Origin: Lentzea albida
Lineage (GTDB): Bacteria > Actinomycetota > Actinomycetes > Mycobacteriales > Pseudonocardiaceae
Direction of reading: 5' to 3'
Assembly (NCBI RefSeq): GCF_900111005.1
Contig: NZ_FOFV01000001.1
Coordinates: 310,001-374,000 of the forward strand
DNA: 64,000 nucleotides
Shown here one piece after another: positions 21,286-24,452 of the stretch. The position numbers and the translations under genes are program-made. Positions within the stretch are counted from its first letter, which is position 1. Each line of letters starts with the position of its first letter. The notes below the pieces were generated by a model. The model had not been told where the DNA came from, made no database searches, and saw only the letters and a list, made by a program, of their open reading frames with translations.

Positions 21286-22371
21286 CTACTTGTCGATGTC
21301 GCCGACGATGACGGCGAACGAACTCAGCACGGCAGGCAGGTCGTCGACCTTCGTGCCGGGCAGGAGCGCCGACAGCGCCTGCACGTTGTTGAACGAGGGC
21401 GTGCGCAACTTGAGCCGCCACGGCGTCTTCTCGCCCCGCGACGACAGGTGCACGCCCGAGGTCCCGAGCGGCGCCTCGACCCGCGTGTAGACGGACCCCT
21501 CCGGAGCCTTGATCGACTTGGGCAGCCGGAGGTTCACGGGCCCGGACGGCAACTGTTCGAGGCACTGCGTCGCCAACTCGACCGACTTTGTGACTTCGTC
21601 GAGCAGACACCGCACCCGCGCCGCCGCGTCACCCTCAGTCCGCGTGACAGGCTCGAACTTCAAAGCCTTGTAAGCGGGCAACGGGTCGTCGCGCCGCAGG
21701 TCGAAGTCCACGCCGCTGGCCCGGCCGATGGGCCCGGTGACGCCGTACGCCAACGCGTCCTCCTGGGTGAGAACACCGAGCCCTTCCAGCTCCTCTGTGG
21801 CGATGGACAGCGTGCTCGTGTCCACAGTGGACAGAAATGCGGCCACCCGCGCGGTCCACCCGGCCGGGACGTCCTCGCGCAGCCCGCCGATCCGGTTGAA
21901 CATGAAGTGGATGCGCCCGCCCGACGCCTCCTCCATGAGCGCCTGCACACCCTCGCGGTAGGCAGCGGCGTTGGGGGACAACGGAGTCAGGAACACCATG
22001 TGCGCCATCAGCCGGTTGAGCTCGCAGAGCAGCGCCCGCAACCACTGCGCCCGCACCGGCACGTCCATGCCCGTCATGCGCTCCACGGCCAGCGCCACCG
22101 CGAGCTCGTTGCAGAACGCCGACAGCCAGTCGTGCCGGTTGGCGAGCGTCAGCACCTGCCGGTAGTCCCGCACCTCGAACAACTTCTCGGCACCCCGGTG
22201 CAGGTGCCCGACGAGGGGCTCGGCCGCGGTGATGACGAGGTCCGGCGTGACGGTCAGGCGCAGGCGGTAGGCGCCGTGGGCCGAGGGGTGCAGGGGGCCG
22301 AGGTCGATCACGCGGTCGACGCCCAGGTACTGGGCGCCCGCGCCCACGCCGACGGTGATCTGCTCGCTCAC
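21286..22371 (-). CDS. nuoD2: Orphan NADH-quinone oxidoreductase subunit D paralogue (NuoD2-like)
   Basis: A 361-residue homologue of complex I NuoD/49-kDa subunit standing alone, without other nuo genes. Family landmarks run the whole length: LGPLHPSAHGAYRL (quinone-site His32), GHLHRGAEKL (Arg59), IGGLREDVP, EAPLGTSGVHL and the C-terminal VGDIDK. It is shorter than usual (about 400-440 residues). Arg59 aligns with the arginine that NDUFAF7 dimethylates in human NDUFS2 (GLLHRGTEK). The residue matching the quinone-binding Tyr (human RLDYVS) is Trp82 (RHDWLS). GTG 22371 start with no clear ribosome site. I recall a similar second nuoD near fol genes in Streptomyces; not checked. May be a specialised complex I subunit or a non-redox relic. 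Confidence 0.85.
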   Translation of the reverse strand: MSEQITVGVGAGAQYLGVDRVIDLGPLHPSAHGAYRLRLTVTPDLVITAAEPLVGHLHRGAEKLFEVRDYRQVLTLANRHDWLSAFCNELAVALAVERMTGMDVPVRAQWLRALLCELNRLMAHMVFLTPLSPNAAAYREGVQALMEEASGGRIHFMFNRIGGLREDVPAGWTARVAAFLSTVDTSTLSIATEELEGLGVLTQEDALAYGVTGPIGRASGVDFDLRRDDPLPAYKALKFEPVTRTEGDAAARVRCLLDEVTKSVELATQCLEQLPSGPVNLRLPKSIKAPEGSVYTRVEAPLGTSGVHLSSRGEKTPWRLKLRTPSFNNVQALSALLPGTKVDDLPAVLSSFAVIVGDIDK

Positions 22372-22387
22372 CCGAGCATGGTTTCAC

Positions 22388-22407
22388 GGGGGCGGGGAGG
22401 GGGCGGG
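22388..22407 (+). other. G-quadruplex-forming motif upstream of the NuoD paralogue
   Basis: Four runs of 5, 4, 5 and 3 guanines separated by single bases, 17 bp upstream of the nuoD-like start and on its template strand. By sequence it meets the usual G4 pattern with one-base loops. Confidence 0.5.
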
Positions 22408-23064
22408 ACGTGGTTTGGGGCGAGGCGGGTGGCGGGGGTCCGCGGGGGTGGGTGGTGGGGGTTCGGCCGCGCGGTGGCTGTGGGTGTGGACGGAGGTGGT
22501 GTGGGCTGGGCGCGGCCGGCGGGTTGCGCGTGAGGTGCGAAGGGGAGGTGGCGGGGGCTCGAACACGGGTGGCGGCCGCGCGGTGGCGCGCTTGAGGTGG
22601 GGAGGGTGGAAGTGGCGGAGTCTCGGGCGCGGCCGGTGGGTTGTGAGGTGGCGCCGATGGACCCTCGGGCCCTGCGATGGCGGGGCTGTGGGCTGGTCGG
22701 GGTGCGGCTGGCGGGACGGCGCTGTGGGCTGATCGGCCGCGAGTGGCGGGGTGCGGGCGGTAGAGGTGGCGGTGCTTGGGCGCGGCCGACGTTCATAAAG
22801 GTGGTGCGGAGGCGCTGGGGGTCGCCGGCGGGCCGGGAAGCGGTGCGGCGGACGCACCTGGCGCGGTGCGGCGGCAGTGCTGAAAACCGGGCACCACCGG
22901 CGACCCGCTGGCGGACGGCGGTGGCGAAGGAGCGGCGGAGGGCGGGGCGGCAGCCGGGTGGTGGCGGACGGGCGGTAGCCGACAAGTGGTGCCGAGGGGC
23001 GGCCGGCGCCTGGACGTGGCTGGTGCCTGGACGCGGCTGACGGGCCGCGAATGCGGCGTGCCGC
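22408..23064. other. G-rich gap without a convincing gene
   Basis: About 660 bp with strong excess of G over C on the plus strand. Two related stretches are seen: CGGCCGCGCGGTGGC-like sequence at 22464 and again at 22573, and GGGCGCGGCCGG followed by a GGGTTG-like stretch at 22508 and at 22625, so a segment of about 85 bp appears duplicated about 110-117 bp apart. Reading frames are open on both strands but have no family character, no ribosome sites and are Gly/Arg/Trp-rich shadows. It lies between the DUF1203 gene and the nuoD paralogue, all minus strand. Confidence 0.5.
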
Positions 23065-23487
23065 TCAAGCCCGCGTGACCCCGAAGAAGAAGCACCCGTG
23101 CGACACGCTCCGCACCTGCACCGCCTCCACCGCGGGATCGTTGAACAATCCTTCGATCACACGATCGAACGATCCAGGCTCCACCACCACGCCGTCACAG
23201 ATCTGACCAGCGGCGTTGTAGGAACGCAGGATCCGGGGATTGTTCAACAACTCAACAGGCAGACGATCCAACGAAGCTCCACCAGGGCAGTCCACGTGCG
23301 TGAACACCGGCCCGACCTCGGAGTACGGCCCCTTCCCGAACGGCGCCGAGTACCGGAACAACCACACCGGCTCGTCAGCCGAAGACTTCCGCAAACAACA
23401 CCGCAAAGGCACATCAGGCTCGGAAGCCCGGTACTCACGACCAGCATCGAAGAACGACTCGGACGGCGACACGGTGTGGATTCGCAT
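23065..23487 (-). CDS. DUF1203 family protein
   Basis: A 140-residue protein starting MRIHTVSPSESFFDAGREYR. LRCCLRKSSADEPVWLFRYSAPFGKGPYSEVGPVFTHVD (given here in parts: LRCCLR..., FGKGPYSEVGPVFTH) and the C-terminal VRSVSHGCFFFGVTRA match the DUF1203 pattern, whose function is not known to me. It is 17 bp downstream of the MidA-type methyltransferase gene on the same strand, likely one transcript. Two copies of the GGATTGTTGAACAATCC-type palindrome lie inside the coding region and encode GLFNDP and ELLNNP. Confidence 0.75.
   Translation of the reverse strand: MRIHTVSPSESFFDAGREYRASEPDVPLRCCLRKSSADEPVWLFRYSAPFGKGPYSEVGPVFTHVDCPGGASLDRLPVELLNNPRILRSYNAAGQICDGVVVEPGSFDRVIEGLFNDPAVEAVQVRSVSHGCFFFGVTRA
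23135..23151. repeat. Dispersed 17-bp palindrome, copy in DUF1203 gene
   Basis: GGATCGTTGAACAATCC, one mismatch from the consensus GGATTGTTGAACAATCC, followed by TTCGATC as in the mutY array. A second, weaker copy (GGATTGTTCAACAAC) starts at 23237. Confidence 0.7.
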
Positions 23488-23504
23488 GAACCCAACCCTC
23501 GCGC

Positions 23505-24452
23505 TCACCCACCAGAAAAGCTGGCGGGATTCGGACGCCAGGGCGGCAACGCGGGCGACCCGGGCAACGCCGGCAACAGGTCCGCCACCCGAACCCCACA
23601 CCCGTGCAACAACCACCCGAACCCGCCCAACCCACCGGGATCACGCAACTCGGCGATCCGCCCGGCCCGAGCGGCCGACTCCAGCCAGTCCCACCCAGAC
23701 CCGGAAGCCGAACCGGACAACCCCAAGGCGGACAACGCATCCCGCTGCGACACCAGCACCCAGTCCCCACCGGCGGCAGCCGCGCACGCATCCAGAGCGA
23801 CGTGCGCCGTGATGTCACAGGACCCGTCGAACACGGGCGGGACCTGGCGCCCGCCTCGATACCCCGTCAGCGTGAACCGACGAGACGACACCAGGTGCCC
23901 GTAGTCGATCGCCAACGCCGCCCCGTGCACACCTGAAACAGCCGCCGCCCAAGCCGCATCCCGAGGCGAACCCACCTCGGCCAGCTCACCGTCCTCCAGC
24001 GAAGGCCACCACCGGGTGATCCAAGGATCCGACGAAGGCCCGCGCACCACCGGGCAGGGGATCGCGTCCAGCCACTCGTGCCCGACCAGCAACCCGACGC
24101 ACGACGGCACCTCGCGAACCCACTGAACCCCGGGCAGCTCGACGAAAGGTCCGACCTCGACGGCGGTCACCCGCAGCCGCGCGGCCAGCGAACCGGTGGC
24201 GAGCGTGCGCACCGCGAAGGCCAGTTCACCGCCGCCCGCGCCAACGTCCACGAAGTCCACGACCGGGGGAAATCCCAGAGCGGCGTCCACACGCGCCAAC
24301 AGCACCAGCAACGCCTCGGCCAGTTCCGGACCGACCAGCGGAGACGTCCGGAAGTGCCCGGACGGCTTCTCCCCGCGCGCGAAGAAGCCGGAAGGCCCGT
24401 AGAGCGCGGCGTGCCAAGCGGCTTCCCAGTCCAACACCGGACAAGTGTGCAT
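23505..24452 (-). CDS. MidA/NDUFAF7-type SAM-dependent methyltransferase
   Basis: A 315-residue protein of the COG1565 group. The N-terminal signature LYGPSGFFARGEKPSGHFRT corresponds to the YYxxxxGDFxTxP region of MidA/NDUFAF7, followed by the SAM motif FVDVGAGGGELAFA (Asp69, Gly71, Gly73), the GHEWLDAIPCP segment (matching the NEFFDALP-type motif) and IDYGHLVSSR (IDYG motif). Known eukaryotic members methylate an arginine of complex I NDUFS2 during assembly. Here a NuoD/NDUFS2 paralogue lies on the same strand about 1.1 kb away. Divergent from the PrsW gene with 14 bp between starts. Confidence 0.82.
   Translation of the reverse strand: MHTCPVLDWEAAWHAALYGPSGFFARGEKPSGHFRTSPLVGPELAEALLVLLARVDAALGFPPVVDFVDVGAGGGELAFAVRTLATGSLAARLRVTAVEVGPFVELPGVQWVREVPSCVGLLVGHEWLDAIPCPVVRGPSSDPWITRWWPSLEDGELAEVGSPRDAAWAAAVSGVHGAALAIDYGHLVSSRRFTLTGYRGGRQVPPVFDGSCDITAHVALDACAAAAGGDWVLVSQRDALSALGLSGSASGSGWDWLESAARAGRIAELRDPGGLGGFGWLLHGCGVRVADLLPALPGSPALPPWRPNPASFSGG

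Follow-up and report, generated by a model that had tools for sequence, protein, structure and literature searches.

The window examined here is a 64,000-nucleotide stretch of the genome of the soil actinobacterium Lentzea albida (assembly GCF_900111005.1, contig NZ_FOFV01000001.1, positions 310,001 to 374,000; coordinates below count from its first nucleotide). On its minus strand lie a gene for a second NuoD-family protein, hereafter NuoD2 (21286..22371, 361 residues, GTG start), and, in the same neighbourhood, a gene for a methyltransferase of the MidA/NDUFAF7 type (23505..24452, 315 residues). The initial annotation, made from the DNA alone, had described the former as an orphan NuoD paralogue and proposed that the latter methylates it, as NDUFAF7 dimethylates Arg85 of the complex I subunit NDUFS2 (PMC3829151). 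We find that NuoD2 is probably the D subunit of a second complex I-like Q-module (nuo2), here without its own NuoH, in which a dedicated MidA-type enzyme would dimethylate Arg59 beside cluster N2.

Both family assignments made by the initial annotation are borne out. NuoD2 matches PF00346 with 195.7 bits against a curated cut-off of 24 (expect value, E, 1e-57) and scores below the cut-offs of the NCBIfam NuoD equivalogs (NF004739, 295.9 against 360; TIGR01962, 284.1 against 459.35). The 54 distinct Protein Data Bank (PDB) sequences that match it are of complex I, NDH and group 4 hydrogenase types, and the 50 PDB matches listed for its AlphaFold model (predicted local distance difference test, pLDDT, 78) are all complex I or NDH subunits. 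When NuoD2 is aligned by HMMER to chain 8b9z_D (430 residues), Arg59 (codon 22195..22197, minus strand) falls by count on position 85, the position dimethylated in NDUFS2 (Arg85 in bovine, Arg121 in Yarrowia numbering), and Trp82 (codon 22126..22128, minus strand) on position 108, the quinone-ligating Tyr108 of the bovine protein; the residue correspondences first proposed thus stand. Arg59 and Trp82 are invariant in our NuoD2 alignments A2 (19 rows) and A4 (38 rows) and are kept in every NuoD2 read across the class, and the HRG...RDYRQ...NRHDW motifs do not vary across very distant genomes. Residues 56–67 of the model, which include Arg59, have a pLDDT below 50, so that the model is uninformative on this segment.

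The methyltransferase scores 41.2 bits against PF02636 (cut-off 23.3, E 1.8e-10), carries the DVGAGGG and IDYG motifs and is the sole PF02636 match in the genome. The S-adenosylmethionine (SAM) motif, E-x-x-D and DYGH, which define the MidA/NDUFAF7 family (PF02636, COG1565), are conserved in an alignment of 19 of its relatives (A1) and align with 1zkd and 4f3n. The activity expected of the family, symmetric dimethylation of the NuoD/NDUFS2 arginine, is predicted here. Searched against the PDB at E 0.01, the A1 profile returned three matches, 4f3n (1.4e-18), 1zkd (2e-16) and 5ztz (1.1e-10), the last annotated there as an NDUFAF7 homologue. A Foldseek search with the predicted structure (pLDDT 92.7) placed 4g67, 4f3n, 1zkd (two chains), 5ztz and 5zu0 at ranks 1–6 (E 2e-15 to 9.6e-14), followed by a large gap before a member of another family at rank 7 (8.5e-5).

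The co-occurrence of the two genes on which the proposed pairing depends was found at the level of the order and of the class. Among 200 genomes of the order, with NuoD2 called at a best match better than E 1e-55, NuoD2 is present in 69 and the methyltransferase in 68; 67 genomes hold both, two NuoD2 only, one the methyltransferase only and 130 neither. The two genomes with NuoD2 only are G031 (96% complete) and G202 (57%); the one with the methyltransferase only is G028 (86%). Families f1, f5, f10 and f12 mix genomes with and without the system, and there both genes change together except in G202. Identity to NuoD2 is 53–80% in relatives with full-length matches and 35–41% for canonical NuoD among the matches listed. 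Across 296 genomes of the class (NuoD2 called at no fewer than 292 bits, E 3.5e-87 or better), 104 have both genes, 12 NuoD2 only, 8 the methyltransferase only and 172 neither. In the 67 genomes of the order with both, the genes lie on the same strand within 600 bp in 50 and close by on opposite strands in two; in ten, the window genome included, they share a contig at 1.2–53 kb, and in five they are on different contigs. The methyltransferase precedes NuoD2 in all 50 close same-strand pairs (orientation judged by midpoints), and a 4-base overlap joins the two genes in 10 of 24 same-strand pairs from loci L021–L047. A chance neighbourhood was rejected as an explanation, the co-occurrence persisting where the genes are unlinked and the gene order being conserved. 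A mirror-tree test on the 32 rows that the methyltransferase and NuoD2 have in common gave r 0.84, reached by none of 5000 permutations; as shared ancestry is uncorrected, this correlation is weak evidence.

NuoD2 is indeed a second NuoD, the genome encoding two PF00346 proteins (one in the canonical nuo operon, the other in the window), but it is no orphan. A search for NuoB retrieved a second set of nuo genes elsewhere in the genome (locus L048), comprising NuoB2, NuoC2 and a two-cluster ferredoxin, NuoI2, and no NuoD. The trio is flanked by a LysR gene on one side and an HtpX-type protease on the other, approximately 18 kb from the canonical nuo operon and 30 kb from canonical nuoD. With these partners found, the idea of a lone, non-redox NuoD was rejected. 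In the set of 200 genomes of the order used above, NuoB2 (called at E 1e-30 or better) is present in 67: 66 have both NuoD2 and NuoB2, 3 and 1 have a single one of them, and 130 neither. All three of NuoD2, NuoB2 and the methyltransferase are present in 64 genomes and all three absent in 130.

The extent of nuo2 differs between families. NuoH2, NuoJ2 and NuoL2-like genes are further members of the set in the genomes read from families f13 and f15 (L112/L120, L114, L116/L121). In those of f1 and f10 (L048, L113, L115, L110, L111, L117) the trio stands without NuoH2, NuoJ2 and NuoL2 and with HtpX next to it, and in all three f10 genomes read it directly follows the canonical operon. For L. albida, a separate membrane arm (NuoH2 to NuoN2) was not found: the genome has a single NuoH, and no NuoH2, NuoJ2 or NuoL2 was found beside the trio, with subunits J to N and A not searched genome-wide. 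Three side observations concern these loci. The LysR-type regulator (L048, 15437-16519, plus strand) is divergent from NuoB2, has a similar open reading frame near NuoB2 in L113, and may control the trio. Genome G028 has a NuoB2 with one internal stop codon, a partial methyltransferase match and no NuoD2; its system may be decaying or its assembly incomplete. A third PF01058 match (L017, G000:C29:45845-46258) lies beside FAD/NAD-type and cyclic-nucleotide-type open reading frames and, by eye, looks like the small subunit of a cytosolic [NiFe]-hydrogenase.

Published work places the arginine at issue next to cluster N2. The residue is reported to be dimethylated in bovine, human, Pichia and Paracoccus enzymes (PMC3750175), and the methylated arginine lies 3.7 Å from N2, which is lost upon its mutation (PMC8042128). 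The equivalent residue in Thermus is threonine (PMC3750175, PMC8042128), and Arg121 of Yarrowia NDUFS2 and Arg83 of the Thermus NuoB homologue occupy the same space by N2 (PMC8042128). Both arrangements appear to be present in L. albida. Its canonical NuoD reads GYLHTGIEK...RTDYLA, with threonine at the methylated position and tyrosine at the quinone position. Of 61 genomes searched in the order, 60 yielded a canonical NuoD, and the 30 loci read, the best 30 of those 61 genomes, all have this threonine and tyrosine. Canonical NuoD can therefore not be the substrate at this position, and the only place where the methyltransferase would meet its known NuoD target is NuoD2. That the enzyme acts on the NuoD of canonical complex I, for which family resemblance and nothing beyond it speaks, was accordingly rejected and retains almost no probability; it is contradicted at this residue, and canonical NuoD occurs in nearly all genomes searched, yet the 130 genomes named above do without NuoD2, NuoB2 and methyltransferase alike.

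The NuoB side shows the converse. Arg75 of the canonical NuoB of L. albida aligns, by count, with Thermus residue 83, and an arginine stands there in all 28 canonical NuoB proteins read from alignment columns (two of the 30 loci gave no NuoB) and in a mycobacterial chain, whereas the three mitochondrial chains shown have threonine. All 37 NuoB2 rows, which come from 35 genomes, have threonine at this position and retain the four cysteines of N2. Given this reciprocal pattern, each NuoD fits its own NuoB and would be mismatched with that of the other set, which we regard as the strongest evidence at the level of sequence that NuoD2 would work with NuoB2 and that no NuoD but NuoD2 presents the methyltransferase with a target.

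The pattern also bears on whether NuoD2, with NuoB2, NuoC2 and NuoI2, is instead an isoform that exchanges into canonical complex I and uses its membrane arm and N-module. The single NuoH of the genome, and the position of the trio, which comes straight after the canonical operon in the f10 genomes read and lies some 18 kb from it here, would suit such an exchange, and much the same has been suggested for NuoL2 and NuoM2 (PMC3765725). NuoD2 paired with canonical NuoB would, however, place two arginines at the same point beside N2, judging from the shared position described in PMC8042128, and the f13 and f15 genomes read have NuoH2, NuoJ2 and NuoL2 in the set itself. We consider an exchangeable isoform possible but on balance doubtful.

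The association of an Arg/Trp NuoD with the methyltransferase extends, with caution, to other classes of the phylum. We compared 80 NuoD stretches, 31 from 32 genomes with a methyltransferase match and 49 from 48 genomes without one (G575 gave no NuoD match at 1e-75, the better of two matches was read for G608 and G620, G611 gave two stretches, and G600, G617 and G624 are left out). All 31 stretches from methyltransferase-match genomes have the Arg/Trp combination. Of the 49 others, 21 have Arg/Trp and 28 have tyrosine, 26 of these with arginine and two with threonine; one row scored as aspartate has an insertion and reads tyrosine one residue on. None of the 28 stretches without the tryptophan comes from a genome with a methyltransferase match. 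The caution concerns the A1 profile, which is less sensitive to distant methyltransferases in these classes; misses would favour the association. As a side observation, NuoD proteins of the Arg/Trp type occur widely across the other classes (L280–L359), and several of these genomes have a methyltransferase-type gene on the same contig.

Several observations weigh against a dedicated Arg59 methyltransferase. Among the best 80 of at least 577 named NuoD2 matches, HRG and DW are present in all 80 (79 by pattern, one by eye), and the methyltransferase lies inside the fetched stretch in 68 and is missing from it in 12. In the class, neither the profile nor the stretches read around NuoD2 revealed a methyltransferase in 12 of the 116 genomes with NuoD2, and the arginine is kept in all 12; either the arginine has a role without the enzyme, or the enzyme is too divergent to be detected. 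Conversely, a methyltransferase match stands without NuoD2 in eight genomes of the class, and 21 of the 52 stretches with Arg/Trp in the other classes belong to genomes that lack a match. Serine replaces Gly60 in five of the 12 genomes without a detected methyltransferase (HRS, and NRS in one). Escherichia coli keeps the arginine and leaves it unmethylated (PMC3750175), and the co-occurrence counts are of phylogenetically dependent genomes. The serine loci are L204, L207, L208, L210 and L213, the last with NRS; three of nine family f49 relatives (L220, L225, L227) also have serine and possess divergent methyltransferases. Gly60 was considered as a recognition mark and set aside as not decisive, serine occurring with and without the methyltransferase and some f49 members with equally distant methyltransferases keeping glycine.

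These points leave room for a methyltransferase that serves NuoD2 through another residue, acts on another nuo2 protein, or assists assembly without methylating Arg59. The linkage is genetic only, and the arginine persists where no enzyme was found. Against this, the known substrate of the family is exactly this arginine (PMC3829151), the Thr-type canonical NuoD is unlinked to the methyltransferase, and the SAM motif and the fold are kept. We judge such another target or role to be rather improbable, and favour dimethylation of Arg59.

The two genes lie on one strand of the window. They are neighbours, as the initial annotation had it, without being directly adjacent. A DUF1203 gene (23065..23487, minus strand, 140 residues, PF06718 E 1e-29) begins 17 bases past the methyltransferase stop, and a further 693 bases separate it from NuoD2; the six open reading frames that touch this interval gave no Pfam match at E 0.01. 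A DUF1203 gene likewise stands between methyltransferase and NuoD2 in six of six same-genus regions (L009–L014) and in the g6 genomes G106 and G173 (L020, L019). The pair is flanked on one side by DUF3180 and DUF6779 genes that follow folate genes, and on the other by a PrsW-type protease and pantothenate genes. In one locus (L009, 7606-8966, genome G010) the methyltransferase matches fall in two frames, the last part being in frame with DUF1203, which indicates a frameshift or a sequence error.

The quinone site of NuoD2 appears altered and in Lentzea perhaps lost. The quinone-ligating tyrosine is absent, with Trp82 invariant in its place. His32 of the quinone loop, which we take to be bovine His59 in agreement with the 8b9z_D alignment, is kept in all 38 rows of A4. 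The FRASPR stretch of canonical NuoB is wholly or partly missing in the three NuoB2 sequences aligned, and a loop present in f15 members as PLEIGA, presumably the bovine Asp160 region, is missing from Lentzea NuoD2. These two losses would also suit decaying relics, with the linkage of NuoD2 and its partners reduced to inertia in a conserved folate-pantothenate neighbourhood; given motifs that stay invariant over very distant genomes and genes that co-occur when unlinked, decay is very improbable. Because NuoB2 keeps its N2 cysteines, a redox role for NuoD2 is likely, if perhaps not ordinary quinone reduction; the earlier suggestion that the paralogue may not be a normal redox subunit may hold in the latter sense and probably not in the former. 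Tentatively, nuo2 of Lentzea and some relatives may have shed membrane arm and quinone site and survive as a soluble NuoB2-NuoC2-NuoD2-NuoI2 electron-transfer module for another acceptor, its N2 tuned by the MidA-type dimethylase. If so, parts of complex I would have been reused for that acceptor while the ordinary complex I of the cell relies on its NuoB arginine.

Taken together, a model for NuoD2 and its methyltransferase emerges. NuoD2 would be the D subunit of a second complex I-like enzyme of actinomycetes, encoded away from NuoB2, NuoC2 and NuoI2, and the MidA/NDUFAF7-type protein an enzyme dedicated to its modification and assembly. Most likely, freshly synthesised NuoD2 would be dimethylated at Arg59 before NuoB2 docks, whereupon the methylated side chain could pack against both NuoB2 and N2. 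For its ordinary complex I the cell would need no methyltransferase, because its NuoD has threonine and its NuoB supplies the arginine.

The arginine mutants described in PMC8042128 cannot separate what dimethylation beside N2 contributes from what the arginine alone does. A single cell here holds both solutions, a canonical Thr-NuoD with Arg-NuoB and an Arg-NuoD2 module with its own putative methyltransferase. Loss of the methyltransferase should touch the second enzyme alone, so that what the methyl groups do could be examined with an internal control. The co-inheritance further gives NDUFAF7-type enzymes a genetic connection to NuoD beyond mitochondria and proteobacteria.

A second nuo set without the N-module and with a detached nuoD2 is already in print for Streptomyces (PMC3765725, PMC8388888). 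The L. albida genes share both features with it, and the NuoD2 family has Streptomyces members; they differ in that only NuoB2, NuoC2, NuoI2 and NuoD2 were found here, with a single NuoH and within the search scope given above for J to N and A. The nuo2 descriptions in those two papers mention no methyltransferase, arginine switch or tryptophan, and the literature searched, that on nuoD2 included, yielded no published statement linking MidA with an actinobacterial or Streptomyces NuoD. As far as this literature goes, the MidA link, the reciprocal arginine switch in one cell and the reduced B2-C2-D2-I2 form are new. With NDUFAF7/MidA and NDUFS2 of mitochondria and Paracoccus, the present system shares the family and fold of the methyltransferase and the target arginine in the HRG-EK motif of the 49-kDa/NuoD subunit, and NuoB2 shares its threonine with the mitochondrial chains. 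It differs from them in that its presumed target is an additional NuoD instead of the principal complex I subunit, methyltransferase and NuoD genes are linked, tryptophan replaces the quinone tyrosine, and the modification is presumed. Canonical actinobacterial NuoD and NuoB (mycobacterial 8e9g) have the same families and fold as NuoD2 and NuoB2; unlike these, the canonical loci read have threonine in NuoD, arginine in NuoB and tyrosine at the quinone site.

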